Source: Ectocarpus siliculosus
Taxonomy: Eukaryota > Sar > Phaeophyceae > Ectocarpales > Ectocarpaceae
NCBI GenBank assembly: GCA_000310025.1
Contig: FN649735.1
Coordinates: 4,006,918-4,048,085 of the forward strand
Direction: 5' to 3'
DNA length: 41,168 nucleotides
Translations under genes and position numbers: made by a program
Part shown: piece after piece, positions 6,501 to 40,959 of the stretch
Layout of the letters: the number at the start of each line of letters is the position of its first letter
Position numbering within the stretch: the first letter of the stretch is position 1
The notes under the pieces: model-generated
What the model saw: only the letters and a program-made list of their open reading frames with translations
Database searches by the model: none
What the model was told of the DNA's origin: nothing

Positions 6501-8600
6501 TGGCTGAGTCTGGCTGTTTCTTAGGGTCCCCCGCCCACCCACGACCCACCTGTCGGTTTGATTCGTGGTCTCCAATTTTTTCAGCAGTAGTTAGTTGTCT
6601 AGTCAGGACATGCGCTACTACTGCTGCTGCGTCCGTCCATGGGTGGGTGCAACAGAAGAGCCCCGGGGACTGGTGGCCTTCTGACCTGATCGCAGAGAGA
6701 GGTTCCTGCCACTACCACAATACGACTCTTACTGAATGTCCATGACGGGGAACGCGTACTACCTCGCATAGCGTATTGCAGCAAGCGGGGGGTCCTGGAC
6801 TATAATCTGTCGTTGACTTGCGGACCCTTCTTCGGGTCAATATCATTTTCGTGTAACTTGTTTGGGTAAGTTAGCCTGTGACCACGGCGGGGATCGACCG
6901 CGTCATTTGTCAGACTATCATACATAGTAGTACGGACAGACGAAGAAGGTACTGGGTAGAGAGAGCAGAACGAACGGGATTGTAATTGATTGTGAAGACA
7001 AAAAAAATAACGGAACTGCTGGGTTCGTCCATGGATAGTTTTTGCAGCACTTATGAAGTATTAGCGTACAAAACGACTTCTTCATTATGTTTTTTTTTTT
7101 TTTCACTTCAGATCAGCGCTCACAGCACTAGTGCCGTTTACTCCAACCCGTGGTCACACAGAAGAGCCTCTCTCTACCCTCCCCTCCTGCGGTACTTTGC
7201 CTTCGATTTTTAATGAGAGAAGAGTTCAGCACTCTCTTCCCTCTGTGTAGAGGGTGCTCGTTGTTCTTATGCATGGCATGTACTGGCAGTAGTAGGTGAC
7301 ATAATATATCGCATCATCAATATTCACACCTAATAATGTTAGTCCACGACGATGAGGATGTCAAACGATAGGTTTGTTTCGGAAAGCTATCGGTGCCAAC
7401 GCCGCCCGGCCTCGATTTCTGCTGTGGAGTAATCGAGCTTTGAAAATTAAATGTTTGTGGTACTTGGATATGAGTCCGATCTGTGCATCCTCTGTGGGGG
7501 ATACGCGTATGGGAAGTATGGGTGTGAGGGTATGCATGCGGTTGTGGTCCAAGTGTGGGGCCCCCGGGAGCACACGGCGGTGTGCTCCTGGCACTTGCCT
7601 GAGGGGCTTGCGTGACGAATACATACAATACATGGTCCTTTTTCATCTGCTGTTCCTGGGATAACACAGTCCTCAGTCTCAACACCACAGACCGCTGAGG
7701 GCGGCAGTGCACTAACATTAAAAATTGTTCAGGGGGTGTGATATCTTATGCCATCTACTCTGTGTATAGAACTCTTTGTCGTGCTCGGTGGGCGAGCGTG
7801 TCGCGTTGTGCGCCCTCGACTTTATTTACGGCTAAAAAACTGGAAAGCTTCAGACAGGCAACGCGACGATACTCGTCGAGTTGCTATCACAATAAGCACA
7901 TGCCAGCCTCTCTCTGTTCAAGCGCGTGCGCTGCAGTGGCTGCTACTGTTGATGCTCCGGCCTCGGCCGCTCATCATACCCCTTGTCCATCTCACCCTCG
8001 GTTCTCAAAGCAGAGACGTCGCAAATCATATTCCCGCCCGCCCCCATGCGCAGGGCATGAATGGCTCGCAATCACACACGAACACACACGTGCCCCATCC
8101 GCACAGCATACGCAAGAGCATCCCGTCATACTCGCATACCCAGAAAAACATGCAGTTTATTGCTTCCTCATCTTGCGCCACCTCCCGTGTCCAAACACCA
8201 ACAACCCCCCGGATGAACCCGTGGTAAGTCCACCGTTTTCTCCGTCCCTGTGCTACTGCTGTGGTAGGATTTTCCATTGCAGAAACGAATGTTGCGCCTC
8301 ATTCGGCTGCGCAAGAGCCCAACGACCTTCTGGCCGAAGCCAAGCCTGTGGTTTTCTTCCTCTACCCTCTACCCTGTAGACTACTCACCGATTTCGTTGA
8401 CACTCACTGCGTTTGCACTGACTCTCTTGGAGGCTATTGCCTACTTGTTGGCTGTTCGACCTTAAGGGATCCGTTGGTCTAACTGCAGCACATCCTAGAT
8501 GGCCTCCTCCCTAACAAACGTGTTGTTCTTAGATGAGCATACCGAATTTTGTGTCATGACTGCTGTCTCACATCGGTCGAACTGCTGCTGCTACCGCTAC

Positions 8601-8645
<45 letters not shown>

Positions 8646-11600
8646 AGAAGCAAATGTCTAGCCTCTGCGGTCAGCACTGTATCAACAACTTGGTTCAGGC
8701 GGCAAGCTATTCCGCCGCAGACCTGGCGGACATCGCCCTCGAGCTCGACGACCAGGAGAGGCAGCACATGCTGGCTGCGGGCTCCGACACCCCGGACGCG
8801 TTGAAGTACGTACGCTTGTTGGTTTGTTTCAGCCCAGCAAACAGAGTTATGTACTTGTGGTAGCAGCGTAGACGGGGAAGATTTAAGCAATGCACGAGAG
8901 ACGTGGATGATGACTTCCTCAAACATCGGAGGTGTATCATGCAAGATTATGTATGGCTGGTACTATTTTTTTTTTTTCGCAGTATAAGGGTCGGCAGAGC
9001 CATGCGCCCCGGACGCAAAGTGTGGGAATAAGAAATGGTGTAGAGGGGGGGCAGTACATGCCGGGCCGAGCCCATGGGGTGTTGGCGTGCCGCAGACGTC
9101 AGTTTCGTGCACCTGTTACTCCACATCCAGCTTCGGGTGAAAGACATCTCTTCGGAGTTGGGAAGCCCTTGGGTCGAAGTAGCGCGGCAAGACCTTCCAC
9201 GGAATATTGCGGTTTGACTCTAGCAGTAGTTTTGTTCTCCGAGCCCCCCTGTCGAGTTTTCCTGCGTGGAAAAGCGAGCGCGATCGCTACCCTCTTCGCG
9301 AAGTACAGTTTCTTTTTATGCCTTGCGGTAATGTAGGCAATACCAATTCCCCACATGCGTGGGAAATAGAAGGCGGCCAGTCAGTCTCGCTCACCGGTCA
9401 ACACCGACCCGTGCATATCAAAAGTGTCAGGTATTTTTCGTCCAAGAGCGTGGATGTACGCACCGCACACACTAGCGCCTCCGCTGTTGAAGTTCAACCC
9501 GGCACGCTGTTTGTCGACTGACTGCAAATCTAACCCTAACCCATCTGGTGCCGGTGCGGGAAGGTTTTTGGCGGAAGAATCTGGAAACGTGGACGCCGCA
9601 GGAAATTTCTCTATTCAGGTGTGTTGGGCCGGTACGGACAGTAGAAGGTTCTGAGTAGAGACCGGAACGATTTGTAAGGTGAAGACAACAACAACGACAA
9701 CAACAACAAGCTACACTGGTAGATTCTTCCTGTCATTTCCCTAATAAGGGCACGTGGCACAGCTTTAGAGCTGATTCTCCGCGAGAGTCGAAGGAGCTAC
9801 GGTCTTGACTAGCGAGAGTTGTGTTTTTCGCCATGTAACGCTGTTTACATTCTGGCCTCACTCCGAGCCGTGCAATTACTGCGGCAAGCGTTTAGTGTTC
9901 CGCCAGTTCTGGTCCTGCCGTGATTGTGGTGGTTGAGCAACCCAGACACGTACCCCATAGACGAGTGTCAGAGGGAAGTGCCCGACTTATCGTCCCTTAC
10001 CGGTGGTTTACCCTCTTAGACAAGACTACCTACCCCGTCCCAATATCCACGCTCAGAGACGTTCCGGCTTTTTTCTTATCACAGGTACTAAACCTTGATT
10101 AATATGGTTAGAGCCTATTTACCCTCGTAGCCAAGAGCGCCCATCCCATCCACCACGCTTGGATGCACTTCTTTTTTTTCTTTGTTACATACCGCAGGTC
10201 CTAAACACGGCCCTGAAGCGACTGTACGGGGCGTACCTTGTATCGGCGGGCAGCGAGAGCGTCGGAAAGCTCAGCACCACGGGGTGAGAAGAGATAGGAC
10301 AAGAGCAGCCAAGCATCGAGCGTGGGATGGGAGGGGGAGGCGTGGTAGTGGAGGGCGGGTTAGGGGGGGTGAAGAGTCGGCTTTGAGGGGAAGTGACAGC
10401 AAATGACATGCTTTCCTCTCGCCGCTAGGGTAGAAGTAGCCCCAGCACGGTGTTTGATGACGTCTTCTTTGAGGGATTTCAACGGGCGTGAAATCGCTTA
10501 AGTCGTCGAGCCGGCAATACTATTCTGATGTGTTACGGTTCGTGTACAACCGATTCGGTGAGCTTGTTGGTGCTTTGGGCGAGACAGGAGTCGGCGCTCT
10601 AGAGGCACCCACGGAATATGTTCAAGTGTTTTCCCTTGTCTTCACGGAGGTACTTGAGCATTACATTGCCGCCAGGGTTGGCCGAAACAAAAAGATTATT
10701 CGGTGGTGGTTCGATCTTTAGAGGTGGTATTGTTGTTCTTGTGAAGTGAAGAACCGCTCTGAATTTCAATCGCGTACACCCCGTGTCCGCTTTCTTCACT
10801 TCAAATAGACCGGTTGGTTTTGCGGTGAGTTTCTATTCACAACATTTTCGCTGTCTCCTCTTGCGTACGTACGTGAGCAGATACGATGTCGAGGACGCCT
10901 TCGTTTTGAACCGACACGCGCATTGGGTGGCCGTGCGCTCTATCGGAGGGGCATATTGGGACCTCAACTCCATGCTGGACAATCCAAGTAAGAGAAATGC
11001 TGGATAGCCTTATGTGAGAGGATTGCTGGATAGTCTTATGTGAGAGGACTGCTGGATAACCCAAGTAAGAGGATTGCTGGATAGTCTTATGTGAGAGGAT
11101 TGCTGGAAAATCCAAGTAAGAGAAATGCTGGGTAGTCTTGCGTGAGAGGACTGCTGGATAACCCAAGTAAGAGAAATGATTGATAGTCTTACGTAAGAGA
11201 AATGCTGGATTGTCTCATGTGAGAGGATTGCTGGATACTCCAAGTGAGAGAAACGAAGACCAACCACTCCCCCCTCGCTGATGGACGTCTACGGCTACAT
11301 AATGCTCGACTGCTGTTTCGCCCCGAGACTTTACATGCACCACCATCTCAACGGACCGTGTTGTAGTCGCTTTGGAACACTCGTGTAGGGAAAGACTTGA
11401 AGGGGCACCCACCCTCTCAGAGCGAATTGGTTGGCGTGGGTATTTTGGCTTTTCCACAGCAACAATAGAAATGATGCGGGGCTTGTATTGGGCACACACA
11501 CGACCCCCCCCCCCCCACTTCGACGGGTACGCCTTCTCTCGTCTCGTGGAAACCCTTGCAGCGCGAATCACGACCTTCGCTCTGGAAGCTTACCTGCACC

Positions 11601-14600
11601 AGCTGCGAGAAGACGGGTACTCGGTCTTCGTTGTAAGGGGGGACGATCTGCCGCCTCCAGCCACGGAGCCCCGCGAGGGATCGAGGGACTGCTGGTACCG
11701 CGTAAAGGACTTGCTCGAGGTGTCAAGAGGAGGTATGAGACGGTGCTAGAAGAGATGCAGGGGGGGGGGTGATGTGTGATATATTTGGTGTTCCCTGCAA
11801 TTGCGTAACGTTCTGCCGCGTCATGATGCGTCTCGACGAGTCTGTTGGCTGTTGTTTCTCGAACGTTCCCACAATCAACGGCGAGTGAAGTCACGCCGTC
11901 GCACTGAAAGTCAGTTTTTTTTGTTGTTTCATGCCTTTTTGTTATTGCTTCCGCTGTCATTGAGAAGACTGCAACCACATTTGCCCCTTGCGCCTTGTTT
12001 TCCGCATTGGTTGTTGTTGTTGTTGTTGTCTTCACATTCAAAACCGTTCCGTTCTTTCTGCCCGTACCTTCTTCTGTCCGTACTAGTCCGCATTGCTTAC
12101 GCGACAATAGAAGGATAGATAGCGCACAGAAACAAACTTCCCCATCTGTTTTGCGGAATCTTATCCTTAGGCGTCATCAGAAAACACTACCAAACACCCG
12201 CGCTGTCTCTTGATTGATGAATGGTATGATGTTGCTGTTGTTAGTCTCTTTTAAATGTTGTTGGATGTTGTTGTTGTTTTGTGTCTTTACCGTAAGAACC
12301 ACTTCGATCTCTGCTCGAAACCTTTCAACCTCTATAGTGAAGCACAAGGAACTTGCTTTCTCCCTCTCTCTCTCTCTTTCTGCAACACAGGAAAAGGATC
12401 TGGCGGCGCATTGAACACGGCGGCCACAGACGTCTGGCTCAACTCCGGTCCGGGGCAGCGCCTAGACGGCGGAACAACCTCCAAGGGTCCGGGAAAAGAC
12501 GGGCGGGATAGCGGCGGGGCGGGCATGACGTCCGCCGAAGACATGCAGCTCGCGATGGCGATCAGCGCTAGCATGGGCGGTGGGGGGGCTGCTGAGGGGG
12601 GGGGCGAGGGGGAGGATGAAATGGCTCGTGCCATCGCGTTGTCGTTGTCGCAAGAAGAGTCAGCGTCGTCATCGCCAGCAGGTGAAAGGAAGGAGGGTCG
12701 TGGGGGGGTGGTTGATATTTTTTCATGTCGTTTTATCATCTTGTGGGTCTCTTGTCGCAGGCTGTTTGGTCAAGGTTAGGGAGTTTTCCTTTTTTTCCTG
12801 GGGGGGGCACCGCCACATGTTTTTCGCATATGCGGTCAGACCCTTGGGTTGCGTCCGTACACGTAGTAGCTCAGAGCTCCTGTTTCGCCTGCCATGTACA
12901 TTTTCTTAACGAGGAGTTATCCTCTGTCTGATTTTTCATCCACATTGAACGTAGAGCACCCTTTGTTCCTGTATTTGCTGTTGTACTTACCATGCACTAG
13001 TTTTTACATGTACTTACTCCTATCCTTTGTACGGAAATCGGAAGCTCCCGTCTGTTTCTGAATTCTTCGTGTCTACAGTTTTTATCTCCTGTCGTATTTT
13101 CGTGTTAAAGAGATGCCATTACTTTTGGTGTTCTGGTCATCGACGTGCCGGCGGTTTGTCGCTTGGAGGTACTTGGCATTGTTTTTTTTTAAGGTCCATG
13201 ATGAATTTTTTTGCGAATGGTAATGGTTCGTGCATGTTCGAGGTGAAGGCGCACATGTCAGACAGCAACTGAAACGAAGATCGAGTTCTTCTCGCACCTT
13301 CGTTCCGAAGGCTGATCCTGCCCTAGCTGATTAATTCACACGTTCTGCCGTATCAGCCGAGACCATGTATCTTTAAAGGACACCGCGTGCCTTCCTACAA
13401 CGTGTGTGTCCTTACGTGTGGGTGCTTTAGGGAGGAACAAAAGATAGGGGTACGGTAGGGTTTCCCTGTTCTCTGGCGTCGCTCAGACGAGAGGGATTAG
13501 GTCGTGTTGAGTCCTGCGGCTGATCTCTGCTTTCGTTGCCGTCGCTGCTGTCACCAGGCTTATACACACCACAACCAGTACCGGAGCTCCAACCCAATGG
13601 CCCGGACGTAGTGCGAGTTCAGGTAAGCGGCTGAGAGTGTGTGTCCCCGTACGTTTCTCATTGGAACTGCTTGAAGAGTGGTTCGCCTATTGCAAGTGTA
13701 GCACTACTATTCCGCCTCTTGAGGAATTGGCAGCCAAGAATCGAGGTTCGATGTTCAAAATATCGAAGAAAATGTACACGCAGGCAGTTGTGATGTTTTG
13801 GTTCAAAGCCCCCTCTATACAACCATTTGATATACTCCTACTAGCCCACAAACGGCGACAGAAACCGAGGCTCTGGACAATGAGAATATCTCCAAGTTTG
13901 GCCCTATGAATATTATTCCGATTACATGGCGGAAGCTAGCTGCGGTGTGCTGGCCACCGGTGAGGCGCGCGAGTATGCCCTTGGTTTCTTGCGCGAAGTA
14001 CTTGTTTTCGAGAGTGGCTTAGCATCTGCCATTCTTGGTAAGGTCTTTGTGCTACCGCGCAACGGTTTCTCCGGTTCTTGACGACAGAAAAAGAAATAAA
14101 ACTTTTCACGTCGGTGTCACGCCGTCGCTGCGCGTTTTACCACTCTGTCTAAAATATGTCAGTGTACGTTGGGCATGCGTTCCTCACATACACGAACACC
14201 GGTGTTACAGGTGACACGAAGCACGCGTACATAATACATAGTATGACCCCACTCCTAAATACCACCGTCGTCTCGTCTGCACCCTCACCGCCGCGAAAAA
14301 AAAAAAAAAAATGTTAAAGCTCCGAGTCGGGGGCGGCCAGAGAGTCGTCCACAGCTTCAGACGGTCCGATCCCCTCACGGCGCTTTTTGACGTGGCGGCT
14401 CAAGCCCTCGCCAAGGCCGACGGTAAGGCGCTGCCTTCTCCCTTCGACGTGGTAGCGCCAGGAGGACGGGCGCTGCTCAAGGCCGGGGTAGTTGTACCAG
14501 GGACCGATGGGGGCGATGTAGCAACAGCAGCGAAGCCGGCGGGGGCGGGTGGGGGGGAGAGTGATGGCGGTGGCCCTACGATAGGGTCGGAACAGCTGGG

Positions 14601-14631
14601 CGGGGCGAGCGTGATCGTGCGCAGGGCTTAG
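3503..14631 (+). CDS. ATXN3: Ataxin-3-type deubiquitinase: Josephin + two UIMs + C-terminal UBX-like domain
   Basis: A cysteine-protease deubiquitinase of the Josephin family, which trims or edits ubiquitin chains in proteasome and p97/Cdc48 pathways. Nine exons: 3503-3547, 8648-8805, 9564-9618, 10198-10283, 10881-10987, 11562-11732, 12391-12681, 13558-13622, 14320-14631. All junctions are GT-AG and phase-consistent, giving 429 aa. Exon 1 supplies the family start ending in LWVYHE, which joins KQMSSLCGQHC. Catalytic Cys22, His129 and Asn144 and oxyanion Gln17 are all present, and the His-to-Asn spacing of 15 equals that of human ATXN3. GYSVFVVRGDDLP (about 168-180) closes the Josephin fold. 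UIM-like motifs lie at about 255-270 and 281-298. Residues 322-429 resemble a UBX/ubiquitin-like domain but lack a clear FPR loop. No polyQ lies in the protein itself. The last acceptor (AAAG) is unusually purine-rich. An active enzyme is very likely. Confidence 0.93.
4729..4836. repeat. Dispersed repeat, copy 1 (pairs with 5783-5892)
   Basis: The blocks TCGTGGCGCCTGGAGTA, GGTTCGGTGTGGAATCGCAA and TCCCCGAGTTTGAG align in order with TCATGGCGCCTCAAGTA, GGTTCCGTAGGGAATTGCAA and TCCCCGACTTTGAG in the second copy. Both sit in ataxin-3 intron 1 and are probably fragments of one old mobile element. Confidence 0.75.
5783..5892. repeat. Dispersed repeat, copy 2 (pairs with 4729-4836)
   Basis: Same family and orientation as 4729-4836, about 1.05 kb further on. 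Similarity continues more weakly to a shared TCGCCATG block after the main match. Confidence 0.75.
7090..7250 (-). mobile_element. SINE, 5'-truncated copy with poly(A) tail
   Basis: On the minus strand this is the body and A-tail (14 T on the plus strand at 7090-7103) of the element found complete at 34086-34380. The two copies share the blocks CACTAGTGCCGTTTACTCC or its near match, CAACCCGTGGTCACACAGAA, CTCCTGCGGTACTTTGCC and AGAGTTCAGCACTCTCTTCC with few differences. The tRNA-like head is missing, as expected for incomplete reverse transcription. Confidence 0.85.
7291..7759. mobile_element. Foldback/MITE-like element with long TIRs, copy C
   Basis: The left end AGTAGGTGACATAATATATC is inverted at the right end as GATATCTTATGCCATCTACT. 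Further in, TAATGTTAGTCCAC pairs with GTGCACTAACATTA. The right end carries the family block CAGGGGGTGTGATATCTTA also seen in copies A and B. This copy is about twice as long as the others (469 versus about 225 bp), so it probably carries an inserted segment. No transposase frame is visible. Confidence 0.65.
8603..8644 (+). repeat. (CTG)14 microsatellite directly before the Josephin exon acceptor
   Basis: Fourteen uninterrupted CTG triplets are followed at once by CAG|AAG, the acceptor of ataxin-3 exon 2. Interrupted CTG/CCG/CTA triplets precede it from 8582. The tract takes the place of the polypyrimidine tract. If intron 1 were retained, the frame would read through as a leucine run. Confidence 0.92.
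10974..11254 (+). repeat. Tandem array of eleven 5' splice-site units (25/26 bp) at an exon-intron boundary
   Basis: The first unit straddles the end of ataxin-3 exon 5 and its donor. Two subtypes follow in the order A B B A B A B A B B A. Type A is 25 bp, with CCAAGTAAGAG or CCAAGTGAGAG. Type B is 26 bp, typically with CTTATGTGAGAG. Units start at 10974, 10999, 11025, 11051, 11076, 11102, 11127, 11153, 11178, 11204 and 11230. Every unit keeps a GTAAGAG or GTGAGAG donor. Only the first donor keeps the Josephin frame; the next unit brings in a TAG. Confidence 0.93.
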
Positions 14632-27400: not shown

Positions 27401-30400
27401 ACATTCTCAAGCACTGCCGAATTTCGCCCCTGGAATTCGTTCACATTAGAAGCCTTCACCCCGCGTCTATCCGTTTTTCAGCACACCCCTTTGGGGAGGC
27501 TTTCATCCGATGAAACGAAAACATCCCCCAACGATGGGTGTTGCCGGAATTTGAACGTTGGTGGAGGGTTTGTTTTTTGTTCTTTTTTCCATCTTTTTGT
27601 GGCCGTTGGTAGCCCAAACGGGCAAGCAAGGACCCCACCCGTTGGCGAAATGTTGGGGTCTTGGTGGTGACCCTTTTCGTGGTACAACCGGTGCTGCTAC
27701 TCAATGCTGCAAAGTTGTTTTGATAGAAAACGCGGTGTTGGGTGGGTAAGTCCTTGGCTATTTTTCTCGTGCACGTAAAGCAGTAGGAAACTGCTGGTTT
27801 CAATTTGGATCCGGTCACCTAGTCTTGGTGTCCGGTCGTTGTTGTTGCTTACGATGGTTATAACCCTCGTGTGTCTCGCCTACAACTGCGTGTGTTTTTC
27901 GGTGGTTCTGTTTGCCCTGTCTTTAACTGCGCGTGTTCGTTGGTACTGACCCTTGTGCATCTCACCTCTTGATCACGCGTGTCTGTTGGCTATGTCTCTG
28001 AACATGGTTCCACCAGGAAACGTCGATGCAGCGGTTGGTCACCATGTTGCAACAGGCGGAAGAATACGTGGGGACCGTTGTCGACGGGAAGCTTCCCGCC
28101 GACCCTCACATGGGCCGTAAGGTGCGTTTTCACCTCATGGATTGATTTGATTGTTGAGGCCGTCATTGTTCGTTTATGGTCTTGCTCGTATGGGCTTTGT
28201 TCTGCCGAGCATGGGTCGCACGCATGGTGCTGATTTCTTCGCTGTGTTTTTGTTCTGGGTTTGCGCTGATGAATGACATGATCACTTTCTCACCCGTCCG
28301 TCCATGAGTTGGAACCTCATGACGTATAGAACATGTTGGCGTTTTGGTCCTGTGAGCTACACATACAAGGTAATTTACGCCTGATCGCCGTGATGACAAG
28401 AACATGAGCGAGGACCAAATATTTCCACCATACGTTTGTGGGCAAGTCCATCGTTAGTTAAGATTATTTTTTGGAGATACCCGAAACGGTGCCGTCCGGT
28501 TGAAAGCATCGTGACTCTGCTATTAAGCACGCGTTTTCGCGTTTTGGTCCAGTGAGCTACATAAAAGGTAATTTACGCCTGATCCCTGTGATGACAAAAA
28601 CATGAGTGAGGACCAAATATTTTTACCATACGTTTCTGAGCAAGTCCATCGTTCGTTAAGATTATTCTTGGAGATACATGAAACGGTGCAGTGCGATTGA
28701 AACCATTTTTACGCTGCCATTACGTACAATTGTACACGTAGTCGAGTTTTGGTCCAGTGAGCTACATAAAAGGTAATTTACGCCTGATCTCAGTGATGAC
28801 AAAAACATGAGTGAGGACCAAACAAAAACCGGCGGCGCAATACTTGCCTCTGAAACGGTGACCGATACAGATACAGCTTGACCATCCCGCGCGGCCCACC
28901 CAACTTTTCGGTGTGTTCCATCAGTCCATCTCCATCCGATAGGTCTTACATACAGATTATATGTACTGTTTTGTAGATGCATGCAGTTTTAATGTGGTTT
29001 TGCAGCACTACTTGTTTATGTTTGAGATTTTCGTGTTTTGCCATCCAATGTCGAAGGTGGACCTGTGTCCTCTTGTGTGACATACCTCTGTCACCTGTTC
29101 GGGTTTTGAAAATGACGGGCTTTGGTGGTTGTTTCGCGAGTTTGGTCCGGTGAGCTTCACATAAAAGGTAATTTACGCCTGATCTCAGTGATGACAAAAA
29201 CATGAGTGAGGACCATTCTGGCGGTAGTCTATGCATTGGAGCCACACAAGATACCCCAGCGGCTGTCAGTCTTGAAATACAGACAGAAAAATCCGTTCTC
29301 AGGGAGACGATATGTCTCGGCAACTTCTCCCAGTGTAGAGCACGAGCCTTTGGGTCAAGCACACTTGCACAACCGTCATGTATCTTTTTTTAGGAACAGG
29401 CCTGGATATGTCATGTTCGTGATGTTGACTTGTTGATTGTCGCCCATGGCGGGGCGCCATGCCGCCTTTCGCCAATGCGGATTGTTTGTGAGGGTGATGC
29501 CCGGAGCAGCTAGACCTGCGCGACAGTCTCTAACTTTTTTTTCTTTTTCTCAAGTCTCGAATTGAAAGACATTCCAGCTCACTGCCTGTGTGCTTGGACA
29601 ACATGTAACTCAAGAGCGGTATTTGCGTGACCGGCGGCGAGACGTCCTGTGAGCTTCAAATTTAATTAAACTCTGAGCTTCGGCGCTGCAGAGAGAATGT
29701 CGAAATCAGCGAGGGCGAACAACAGGTTGCAGACCGCGCTGTGTGTTAGACAAGTAGGTTTGGAGTTAGATGTGCTGATCGGCTATTTAGACACAAAAAA
29801 TCGCCGAGGGCTTGAGTGCTCATTTATGCTATGATGCCGTTGCGTGTGACTATAATAGTACTGTGGTGTGCTGAAGTGTGATGGCCCGGTGTGGCTAATA
29901 ATGTACCTGCGTCGGTGCGCGTTTCGATCGAGTGTTGCCATCTTGCCATGGTGTGTTGCAGTCATCAGTATCCAAGCGCACACGATCGCGTACCGTGTGT
30001 TGATCCTGCCCAGTCTGGTGCCCTTGTCCTTGGATAGAGTTGAAACGGATAATGCCCTCGATTCTCGTTCTCTCTGTCACGACGTATGCAGTAGGTGCCC
30101 TTAATAAATTGTCGATCGGAAAGTGTATGCCACGTTGTTTTTTGTTTTTTGCTGGCCTGATGCGTTCGTTGCCCAGGCCAGGGTGTGAAACCATGGTGCC
30201 ATCAAGAGCCCAATCACTTATTTGCATGCTTTTCAACATGATATCGAAGATGCCGATGGGAATGCATCACCACCCCTTGTCACAACTGCGCTTCCCTTTG
30301 TGTTTTCCGGTTCTCCCTCCCTCGCTTTTTCTTGTTCCCCGCAGCTGGCCGACACTCTCGCCGCCATCCCGCGAATGAGACCGGAGGCCTTCAACCGCCT

Positions 30401-37990: not shown

Positions 37991-40959
37991 CTGCTGTTGC
38001 TGCCTCAACCGATGTCCTTGACGCATGAGATATAAGGCTGCTTTTGTCTTTTCCCCGCAAGACGTGTTTATGTCATTTTTTGATGCACTGACCTGATGCG
38101 CGTTTCACTCGCCCCCCCCCCCCTCGCGCGCTACTACGTTCTCGTCAATCGATTCTTGCCAGACCGAAACCGTTTCCGGGGGCGCCAACATTGGGTTCCA
38201 CGAGACTTTTGTGGTGCCGTGTCAGGGTCCCAGGGACGCCGTTGTGCTGGAAGTGTTCTTCGGGGAGGGCGAGAAGGCCGTCGCAATCGGTAAGCAACAT
38301 GACAGCACTAGCGGTTACATTGGGAGCGAAGGGGGAGACGGAGTCGAAAAGGCGCATGCATTGCTCCCCCTCGCTACTCCTTTGGCAAAGTAGGAAGGAA
38401 TGATTGTCCATGGGTGATGGGTCCAATTCTCTGTCCTCTCGAGGACGCGTGGTCCATGGTGATGTGGAGCGGCCTGTAAACTTGAGTAGCCTACTTGGTG
38501 ACCTCGCACGTGGCTGGTCATGTGCACACCCTCTGTATCGGGCTGATCATATTTTGGCGACGCCCTTCCTCGTGATACTATTACAGTGTGATCCTTTTAT
38601 AGAGTGATGCCATTATGGTGTGATGCTATTTTGGTGTGATACTATTATTGTGTTACACTATTTTTGTGTGATGCTATTATAGTGATACTTTTAAAGTTTG
38701 ATACTTTAGTTTGATACTATGATAGTGTGATGCTTTAATAGTGTATGCTGACACGTGGCACATGACGCACATGGAGAGCAACCATCATTCAGTCGACCTC
38801 CCAGCTTCTTGTGCGACCCTCCACCCCCATTTCTTCGCAGACGTACGAGCGGCCCTTGCGCTCGAAACCCTACCCCATTCCGTCCCTCACTATTTAGTGT
38901 CCATTTGATGCCCCATTGCCCCGACTGCGGCATGCGTTTACATGAATACACCCCGCCCCCAAACATAACAAACGAGTATACCCTGGTCCGGTGAGAACCC
39001 GGCGTGCTCCGTCCCGGCTTTGTAGGGATGCGAGTCTAACGACTACGGCATGCACGACTATGAGTACACCCCCTCCCCCCCCCTCCCTTGCAGGCGATGC
39101 GGCCCTTCCGCTGGACGCCCGCGTGGTTGGCGTTTCCCACCCCGTGCTCCTGTCGGTGAAGGACAAGCAAGGGAGGAACAGGGGTTTCCTGAGGGTGGAA
39201 ACGTTTTGGCTCGACGAGGCGAAGCCTAGGAAGGAGGTCGGCGAGTTCTACTACAAGGTGAGACGAGACGGAGGCTCTCCCTTGGCACGGCGGTTGTCAA
39301 AAGTTTTTGTCTCGCACGAGTGAGTGGTTAGCCCGCGCAAGCCCGAACGAGATGTGCGAGTTCTACGACAGGGTGGGAGTGTATGGTCTCTCGAGAGTGA
39401 GGTTGTACAGTATGGCAAAATAGTGATAATCGGTCTAATATTGCTGTTAGTGGCGCCCTCGAAACACCGGCGCGAGCGTACGACCCCAGCCCGGTGCATT
39501 CCCTTCGTTGCTGGTATCCATGGTAAATAGACTGCTGTGTTTACCCACCTATGAATCCCACGATGGTTCAACGCGGTGTGAGTATTTTTCTTTGTCGAAG
39601 AAACCACGGTTTTGCCTCCATATACTTTTAGCTTTTGGTTTAGAGATTGGTCGGTTTTTTTTTGGTGCGAAATATTTTCCCATTATTTTATTGATCTTGA
39701 ATGATGTCTCTATCGGTGATGTATTGCCCCTGTTCCTGGCCCCGCCGTATCCTCCCCCTTCGACTGCTACCTTGCTTGTCTGATGGACATCTTTTGCTGT
39801 ACGTGTGCGCGGGGCATGTCGCATCTCGTCGGGATCTTTCGTGAACCCATCCCCACACTCGAAGGTCGTACACCCCTGCGGCGTGCACTTGCGGAATCAG
39901 CCATGCACCGGGTCGGACAGGAGCGTTCACGTGCTGGGGTGTGGGGAGGTCTTCGTCGCTTGCGAGCGGCAGTGGGTGAGGACAGCAGTACGGTGGAGGC
40001 TTTCGAGCAGCGTCTTCCGGGCATGTTTGTTGTGCCGTGCGTTGTGGTTGGAGAGGTTCATCGTGTTGCAGCATCTACCGGCCGAATGCCTCTTTGCCGT
40101 GTGTTGTGGTTGGAGAGATTCATTGTGTTCCAGCTTCTACCGGCCAATTTCCTTGTGCCGTACGTTGTGGTTGGAGAGATCCGTGGGGTGTCGTAGTTTG
40201 CTGCGAACTATTATGAGGTAACTCATTGTACGGGTTTTAGAGTTGAGTGAAACGGACGGTTCCATATTTTGGAAGTGCCTAGAATGGAAAATTTGTGACG
40301 TCATCAGGAGCTGCGCCACTATTTTCCCGCCCACCGTCACTTCAGCACCGACAGTACCGAAAGTCGCCTCCTAATAGCTTTCTTGGGGGTGGTTTGCTAC
40401 AAAAGCTTTCCATGAGGCGCGTTGAACTCTTGACCGCGATTTGCGATTGGTGCCATGCCGGTCGGTGATGGAGTATCTCGGTACGCCTGGGACGGGCGCG
40501 TGGAGGAATGGACAAAGTGCCTCTTGTTGGCGGACAACAACGATGGCCGTGCATTTGTTTGGTCATGATTGCTCTTTTACCTCTTTCTCGACGCGAACGG
40601 TTCCAGACCTCCGTATTTTTGTATATTACTTCGAATTTTCTTTTGGACTTGAGTGTGTGTGTGTGTTTTTTTTTGTAGGCCCTATTGTGCGGCCATCATT
40701 TCTCTTGCGCGAACGGTTTCAGACCTTGGTCTTCTCTCTCCGACGGCAATTATTTTTGTGCGCGTCTGCTCGTTTTTTGGGAAAACAGCACGTTGGCGGA
40801 GAACCCGTTGATGGCGACTGCAGCCCGGTGTTCGTCAAGTTGATGACCTCCAAGGACCGCTGGAACCGGTCCGGCTGGTGCTTCGAGACGCTCTGCAATA
40901 GCGGCGGAGTCAGCGTCCCGGTGCTGGAGCGCGCGAGTCCGCCCTTGAGAGAGGTGTGA
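32712..40959 (+). CDS. C2-domain protein with a long insertion in the C2 fold
   Basis: Eight exons: 32712-32747, 35262-35360, 35937-36032, 36548-36773, 37295-37602, 38163-38289, 39094-39257, 40789-40953 (or to the in-frame TGA at 40959). All are GT-AG with matching phases. The product is 407 aa, or 408 if it ends at LREV-stop. A C2 sandwich is read from ELYLNVLGCKALVP (about 84-97), then after about 135 low-complexity acidic/Gly residues GECFVRIRNATTGRDLQTE (239-257), GFHETFVVP, VVLEVFFGEGEKAVAIGDA, and GRNRGFLRVETFWLDE. The Asp residues that bind Ca2+ in classical C2 loops are mostly absent, so any membrane or protein binding is probably Ca2+-independent. Before it is a basic helix-like stretch (WLKKKLFKK). 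Exon 1 (MLLPEPKKTDLK) is the least certain part. Function beyond C2 is unknown. Confidence 0.72.
34086..34380 (-). mobile_element. tRNA-derived SINE, apparently full length (C2 gene intron 1)
   Basis: Read on the minus strand it begins with a tRNA-like head (34380-34310): A-box-like TGGTCTAGTCGG, anticodon loop CTTCTAA and B-box-like GGGTTCGAATTCC. A body of about 200 nt follows, ending in a poly(A) tail (11 T on the plus strand at 34086-34096). The body matches the truncated copy at 7090-7250 closely. No clear target-site duplication is visible. Confidence 0.8.
34310..34380 (-). ncRNA. tRNA-Arg(UCU)-like SINE head (degenerate tRNA sequence)
   Basis: GCCCCGGTGGTCTAG at the 5' side and TTCGAATTCCGG near the 3' side resemble tRNA-Arg. 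The loop CTTCTAA has the anticodon TCT in the right place. The anticodon stem does not pair, the T-arm has an extra base and the acceptor ends do not fully match. It is thus not a working tRNA gene, but it could still act as an RNA polymerase III promoter. Confidence 0.6.
34999..35060 (+). repeat. CAA/CAG/CAC triplet-rich stretch in C2 gene intron 1
   Basis: Runs of CAA, CAG, CAC and CAA triplets follow one another over about 60 bp, just before the poly-T and acceptor region of exon 2. No exon is supported here. Confidence 0.75.
37955..37987 (+). repeat. (CTG)11 microsatellite in C2 gene intron 5
   Basis: Eleven uninterrupted CTG triplets are followed by degenerate CTT/CTG/TTG triplets. They lie mid-intron, 175 nt before the next acceptor. 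Confidence 0.9.
38572..38745 (+). repeat. AT-rich minisatellite in C2 gene intron 6
   Basis: About eleven degenerate copies of a 14-18 bp unit, best described as GTGTGATGCTATTATA with variants (GTGATACTATTA, TTTGATACTTTA). It is sharply more AT-rich than its surroundings. Confidence 0.85.
40031..40186 (+). repeat. Tandem repeat, about 61 bp unit, 2.5 copies, in C2 gene intron 7
   Basis: TTGTGGTTGGAGAG recurs three times with about 61-bp spacing, together with CTACCGGCC and TGCCGT. A 137-codon frame through the array (39783-40196) exists because the repeat happens to lack stops. Confidence 0.85.

Follow-up and report, generated by a model that had tools for sequence, protein, structure and literature searches.

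An exon end and its 5' splice site form the first unit of an eleven-unit tandem array in an ataxin-3-like gene of Ectocarpus siliculosus, and the first of several repeated donors is likewise a homology-supported exon end in five more genes of this genome: CDC48/p97, IFT54, XPD, a short-chain dehydrogenase (SDR) and an RGS protein. With a probability of roughly 0.7, we consider the array to be a tolerated by-product of local tandem duplication spanning the exon/intron border. The array lies in the window, a stretch of 41,168 nucleotides (C10:4006918-4048085), and whole-genome searches covered the 189-Mb genome in 492 contigs. The features are collected in Table 1.

Table 1 Exons, donors and related features of the ataxin-3-like gene (positions in the window) and repeated donors in five other genes
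Feature	Position	Strand	Detail	Basis
Josephin exon with catalytic Cys	8648-8805	+	SLCGQHC	in-frame joining, Josephin/ataxin-3 matches
Josephin exon	9564-9618	+	FLAEESGNVDAAGNFSIQ	in-frame joining, ataxin-3 alignment
Josephin exon	10198-10283	+	VLNTALKRLYG...	in-frame joining, ataxin-3 alignment
Josephin exon, catalytic His and Asn region	10881-10987	+	exon half of array unit 1 formed by the final 15-16 bases	phase-consistent; joined protein matches Josephin and ataxin-3
Tandem array	10973-11253	+	25/26-bp, 11 units; unit 1 is exon end plus first donor, units 2-11 intronic	TRF, motif positions
Donor 1	10988-10994	+	GTAAGAG; alone among the eleven joins the next exon in frame, gap-free	joining, ataxin-3 alignment
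Array-bearing intron	10988-11561	+	574 bases with donor 1 (318 if donor 11); acceptor ccttgcag/CG	exon joining
TAG	11005-11007	+	in frame for every later donor	exon joining
Donors 2-11	11014-11250	+	11014, 11040, 11065, 11091, 11116, 11142, 11167, 11193, 11219, 11244	GTRAGAG motif positions
Josephin exon directly after the array intron	11562-11732	+	TRITTFALEAYLHQLREDGYSVFVVRGDD...	in-frame joining, ataxin-3 alignment
Exon with ubiquitin-interacting-motif-like stretches	12391-12681	+	stretches under Pfam cut-off	frame, Pfam
Additional exon	13558-13622	+		frame only
CDC48/p97 (L017)	C241:514153		22-bp spacing, 4 donors	PDB 4.4e-20, junction without gap
IFT54			35-bp spacing, 3 donors	MIP-T3_C 5.6e-10 joined; 0.073 with a longer left piece; no match with only the right exon
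XPD			68- and 51-bp spacing, 3 donors	RAD3 4.8e-18, gap-free
Short-chain dehydrogenase			19-bp spacing, 4 donors	3.9e-9, gap-free; adh_short 3.8e-9
RGS protein			67- and 52-bp spacing, 3 donors	Pfam 34.8 bits joined; left part by itself 15.5; right part without a match

An ataxin-3-like gene in seven exons

When joined through donor 1, seven exons of the window give one open frame. The joined product matches Pfam Josephin over the full model (2.2e-46, positions 1-157 of 157) and human ataxin-3 in the PDB (1yzb, 3.4e-34), in agreement with the identity proposed in the first-pass annotation, and on this homology the gene is confidently predicted to encode an ataxin-3/Josephin-like protein. Its Cys, His and Asn are what we take to be the catalytic residues. 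Matches to UIM_2 (0.002) and UIM (0.05) are both under the Pfam cut-offs. The genome holds two Josephin matches, both within this gene, as seen by exon-wise searching, which can miss others.

An imperfect CTG repeat (8582-8647, 21 copies in Tandem Repeats Finder, TRF) adjoins the acceptor CTGCAG of the catalytic-Cys exon and is the second splice-site-abutting repeat of the gene; its frame is open throughout, so it might alternatively be coding poly-Leu. An open frame at 14245-14628 has a weak UBX-domain match (E 0.032, under the cut-off) and is possibly a C-terminal exon of the same gene.

Eleven donors in tandem

TRF and the motif positions agree with the first description of the exon end as unit 1 of a 25/26-bp array of eleven donors. 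GTRAGAG is present in 11/11 units, which account for 11 of the 13 occurrences on the plus strand of the window, and successive donors are spaced by 26, 26, 25, 26, 25, 26, 25, 26, 26 and 25. TRF reports four overlapping rows within 10972-11253, with periods of 26, 51, 77 and 128 and scores of 228-364. Two unit subtypes, described at first as alternating, are indeed present: A (...CCAA/GT; units 1, 4, 6, 8 and 11), with intronic members of 25 bp, and B (...TTAT/GT or similar; units 2, 3, 5, 7, 9 and 10), of 26 bp. The 51-bp TRF period is consistent with duplication of a two-unit block. The alternation is imperfect, in the order A B B A B A B A B B A; the donor is swapped between subtypes in unit 9 (GTAAGAG) and unit 11 (GTGAGAG).

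Identity among the ten intronic units averages 79% (range 64-100%), and because of this divergence the array is not fresh. A chance origin was excluded in favour of tandem duplication. No second match to the array DNA was returned by a genome search that skips very common words. Elsewhere in the window, further tandem arrays lie at 28339-28822, 38572-38744 and 40030-40180, with units of 198, 16 and 62 bp, respectively.

The first donor keeps the protein

Splicing from donor 1 to the acceptor at 11562 would give ...DLNSMLDNP/TRITTFALEAYLHQL..., which aligns gap-free with ...NLNSLLTGPELISDTYLALFLAQL of ataxin-3. Each later donor (10/10) leads to an identical 139-residue product ending in LDNPSKRNAG; the offset of unit 10 (+231) is a multiple of three, yet it runs into the same TAG. 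The earlier view that only donor 1 preserves the Josephin frame thus stands on the gap-free junction and the ten stops, as does the view that later donors share one TAG, except that six residues (SKRNAG) are added after LDNP and not about ten. Also as described, the truncation falls past the presumed catalytic Cys, His and Asn: the 139-residue product scores 130 bits, covering 132/157 Josephin positions, where the full domain reaches 158 bits, and is without 25/157 model positions. Protein homology points to donor 1 as the donor used.

Donor strength and conservation

Six U1 genes were found in the genome, all (6/6) with the canonical ACTTACCT at the 5' end. The predicted U1 pairing of the eleven array donors spans only -4.4 to -4.7 kcal/mol, with donor 1 at -4.5; donors 6 and 8 are identical to donor 1 at 11/11 compared positions, and donor 4 at 10/11. 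Since copies 4, 6 and 8 equal copy 1 throughout -3 to +7, donor strength cannot pick the first copy, and transcript order and/or exon context must therefore make the choice. Of the six other donors in the gene, five have stronger predicted pairing than donor 1 (-5.8 to -11.0 kcal/mol) and one has weaker pairing (-3.1). In the five other homology-supported genes, which have 3-4 donors each, pairing ranges from -9.2 to -11.1 kcal/mol, compared with 11 donors at -4.5 in ataxin-3; among these six genes, the longest array coincides with the weakest donor.

Evidence that the intronic donors are better conserved than the remaining unit letters is weak. In a post hoc test, 2/22 parsimony steps fell in the donor columns (7/26 of the unit), each of them at +3, a position that tolerates A or G (P 0.04); with trees derived from the remaining columns the count was at most 3/23 (P 0.10). 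Invariant columns made up 6/7 of the donor and 6/19 of the rest (P 0.02). A TGCTGGA block is as conserved as the donor, with 3 minority cells in 7 columns against 4.

Repeated donors in other genes

The first-pass annotation had suggested searching the genome for repeats whose first unit lies over a donor. Pattern searches for three consecutive donor motifs, with the loci then read individually, yielded the five more homology-supported genes. In all of them the later donors (12/12) shift the frame or reach a stop. All 12 differ from the first donor at no more than one of 11 positions, a likeness that is partly built in, as the search pattern fixed 5-7 positions and the filter kept at least 7/11; the first donor's predicted U1 pairing is shared by 11/12, the exception being the weaker donor 4 of CDC48. 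The RGS protein has no PDB match at 0.001.

Copies were also compared outside the searched motif, over 20 exon and 17 intron bases and against the background of the fetched stretch. Later copies match the first at 23 and 24 of 30 positions in XPD (background maximum 16), at 24 and 24 in RGS (17), at 21, 22 and 22 of 32 in SDR (19) and at 21, 21 and 14 in CDC48 (17), where 2/3 exceed the background. IFT54 copies reach 12 and 13 of 30, below the background maximum of 16; its exon half is shared only in the last three bases, CAG, and the repeat begins at the donor itself (TRF 1666-1774). At the settings used, the donors of XPD, RGS and the kinase-like gene are not called as arrays by TRF; for them 'array' denotes three or four similar copies.

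A kinase-like gene (L036) and a RAD5-like gene (L035) are probable further cases. The former has a Pkinase match of 0.003, under the cut-off, and no PDB match at 0.01; its copies are alike, and one overlapping donor at +6 would keep the frame. The RAD5-like gene has no PDB match at 0.001. At about 1367-1543 of this locus (C26:5962379) there are two intronic copies, each with TGTAG, followed by 15 bases that keep the reading frame of the exon end (KLGRE and KLGKE) and then by GTGAGT, which from their sequence could be in-frame 15-base microexons.

Donor arrays are present in both CDC48/p97 (L017, C241:514153) and ataxin-3 (window 10973-11253), and the two proteins cooperate in the same degradation pathway in other organisms. 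Their co-occurrence here is probably coincidence.

Survey and genome-wide counts

AGGTRAG triples were found at 16 places, of which 15 were fetched and one (C4:670081), by eye without a tandem repeat, was left out. The fetched loci comprise four whose first donor is supported by homology (L015, L017, L033, L034), two probable (L035, L036) and two possible cases (L014/L038, L037), two in-frame coding repeats (L011, L012) and five without a visible exon (L009, L010, L013, L016, L021). A further 14 repeats (L018-L020, L022-L032) were chosen by eye from the GTRAGAG, GTAAGT and GTAAG listings, for GTAAG among the matches listed, about the first 100 of 197; one of the 14 was anchored with homology (L023), and L022 and L028 had no clear exon on inspection. 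In total 5/29 surveyed repeats are homology-supported, with ataxin-3, the starting case, additional, and the open frames of most of the non-supported ones were judged by eye only. Locus L009 (C7:1498308) carries at 1989-2448 a 14-copy array with donors 30-34 bp apart and AGGTAAG in each unit, and no visible adjoining coding exon.

Across the genome, donor triples showed no consistent excess over the reversed-pattern control and were higher in 1/5 comparisons. Counted as overlapping matches rather than arrays, and against a crude control that differs in dinucleotide make-up, they numbered 14 versus 17 for GTRAGAG, 38 versus 96 for GTAAGT, 197 versus 359 for GTAAG, 17 versus 188 for AGGTRAG at 39-69 spacing, and 26 versus 16 for AGGTRAG at 8-38 spacing, the sole higher count, in which 12/26 came from one array. 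Single AGGTRAG motifs numbered 36,324 versus 36,064 in the control.

Mirror patterns for acceptors gave 6 versus 5 in the control, and 70 versus 15, the latter mostly from what resemble families of coding or dispersed repeats. Of these acceptor loci, five were fetched (L039-L043). One of them, L043 (C25:4454969, 1479-1645), has 58-bp units with TTGCAG/GAGTTCTT, and its last acceptor opens a 34-residue frame without a PDB match. Judged by its layout, it is a possible mirror case in which the last acceptor would be used.

Probable tolerated duplication across the exon/intron border

We propose that a short segment over the exon end and 5' splice site was duplicated in tandem, and that the array would have grown by slippage or unequal exchange, partly as two-unit blocks. 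The exon would stay intact 5' of copy 1, so that splicing at copy 1 would leave the protein unchanged and the remaining copies would leave with the intron. Tandem duplication may strike anywhere; where it spans a donor, it would survive thanks to the exon left whole at the first copy. The choice would be set by transcript order, with the first donor made and committed winning, and/or by the sole adjacency of copy 1 to the full exon with its enhancers, which is compatible with a first-donor rule. That the first donor wins would be the simplest rule in this organism that makes all these genes work. At most a few truncated mRNAs would arise from the array, and these would probably be targeted for decay. 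The available text of a study of designed human-cell libraries reports that, with both 5' sites consensus, the first was predominantly used, and that order was irrelevant for 3' sites (PMC6783452). For Ectocarpus itself, the portion available of PMC4476162 reports that splice motifs in exons are strong and that alternative splicing is detected at a low rate.

Neutrality does not predict that ataxin-3 has a longer array and a weaker donor than the five other genes, and the slightly lower change in the donor columns also speaks against it. In its favour are the equally conserved TGCTGGA block, the finding of the same layout in unrelated genes whose donors are strong, and an intron free of polyadenylation signals. 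Functional readings, even when combined, seem unlikely to us. The first-pass annotation had seen in the array a special device, a U1 landing array or a switch, and this view lost ground: the layout recurs in at least five unrelated genes, 1/5 counts are above the control and donor conservation is weak. On the sequence evidence a regulatory role for the array is not supported. Eleven weak donors might jointly recruit U1 snRNP and aid the first, a reading in line with the low predicted pairing of donor 1 relative to 5/6 of the gene's other donors, with the longest array lying at the weakest donor and with the slightly less changed donor columns; we nevertheless hold it improbable, as donors are strong in all five other homology-supported genes, where such help is unneeded, downstream U1 sites would compete as well, and the conservation test is weak and post hoc. 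U1-site arrays could in principle block early polyadenylation (telescripting), and bound U1 had been offered as such a guard; the 574-base intron, however, contains neither AATAAA nor ATTAAA, and its T runs are all shorter than 6, which makes this hardly credible.

It is quite improbable that the later donors act as a poison switch, in which truncated or decay-targeted mRNA is made and array length or a factor sets the deubiquitinase level. All ten do share a premature TAG that lies 5' of further introns, and the cut product would retain the part with the presumed catalytic residues while losing 25/157 Josephin positions, but extensions not divisible by three tend to give stops anyway, and the five other homology-supported, unrelated genes likewise break the frame or stop; the search for regulatory signals covered those for polyadenylation and gave none. 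Similarly little weight can be given to the speculation that decoy-donor copy number is a heritable dial, by which the ataxin-3 array, perhaps also that of CDC48, would titrate U1, set the productive share of mRNA and be kept by selection. An assembly error, or a true exon end elsewhere, is very improbable given that the intronic units differ, unlike one unit repeated by an assembler, and that the homology junction is gap-free. Tolerated duplication across the border remains our preferred reading.

Relation to known repeats and significance

The human gene 6-16 (IFI6/G1P3), which is induced by interferon, contains a minisatellite that Turri, Cuin and Porter reportedly described in 1995. According to the available text of PMC4526556, downstream repeat units of this minisatellite serve as splice donors. 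By analogy we regard it as the closest known case, and it is a clear precedent for a multi-donor repeat. In both, a tandem repeat supplies several donors, and the ataxin-3 array has a donor-like sequence in every unit (11/11 GTRAGAG) and a first unit that overlaps a real exon end and donor. The 6-16/IFI6 repeat has a unit of 12 bp, so that extra units keep the frame and lengthen the isoforms, whereas in the ataxin-3 array the units of 25/26 bp are not divisible by three and the ten later donors all reach a TAG; the gene and lineage are different too. The present case also differs in that every additional unit disrupts the protein and in that the layout occurs in several genes of a single genome. 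Among the matches listed in the literature search, no title or abstract start concerned donor arrays in ataxin-3 or algae.

Equal donors in series also characterize the designed pairs of PMC6783452, where, in the text available, the upstream one was predominantly used; those were human-cell constructs, whereas here the series are natural, comprise 3-11 donors, and have a predicted use drawn from homology. In intron gain by tandem duplication, as far as the accessible part of PMC4974935 describes it, a short splice-signal segment is likewise duplicated with the protein unchanged, and that paper cites a 24-bp AGGT segment that was repeated in fission yeast. That process places a new intron inside an exon, whereas here an existing donor was multiplied and no intron was gained: the homologous ataxin-3 junction removes all intronic copies within one intron.

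Donors that are similar, and often identical, follow one another in series of 3 to 11 in at least six ordinary genes of this genome, and the protein tolerates the first only. The choice between identical donors was previously tested with designed constructs (for example, those in the available text of PMC6783452), and these genes offer a natural test. If confirmed by cDNA, they would be natural replicates of a first-donor rule outside animals, with a measurable error rate per decoy. They would also show why duplications that cross the border can accumulate silently, and should later donors serve in a few percent of mRNAs, array length may translate into variable gene output between strains.
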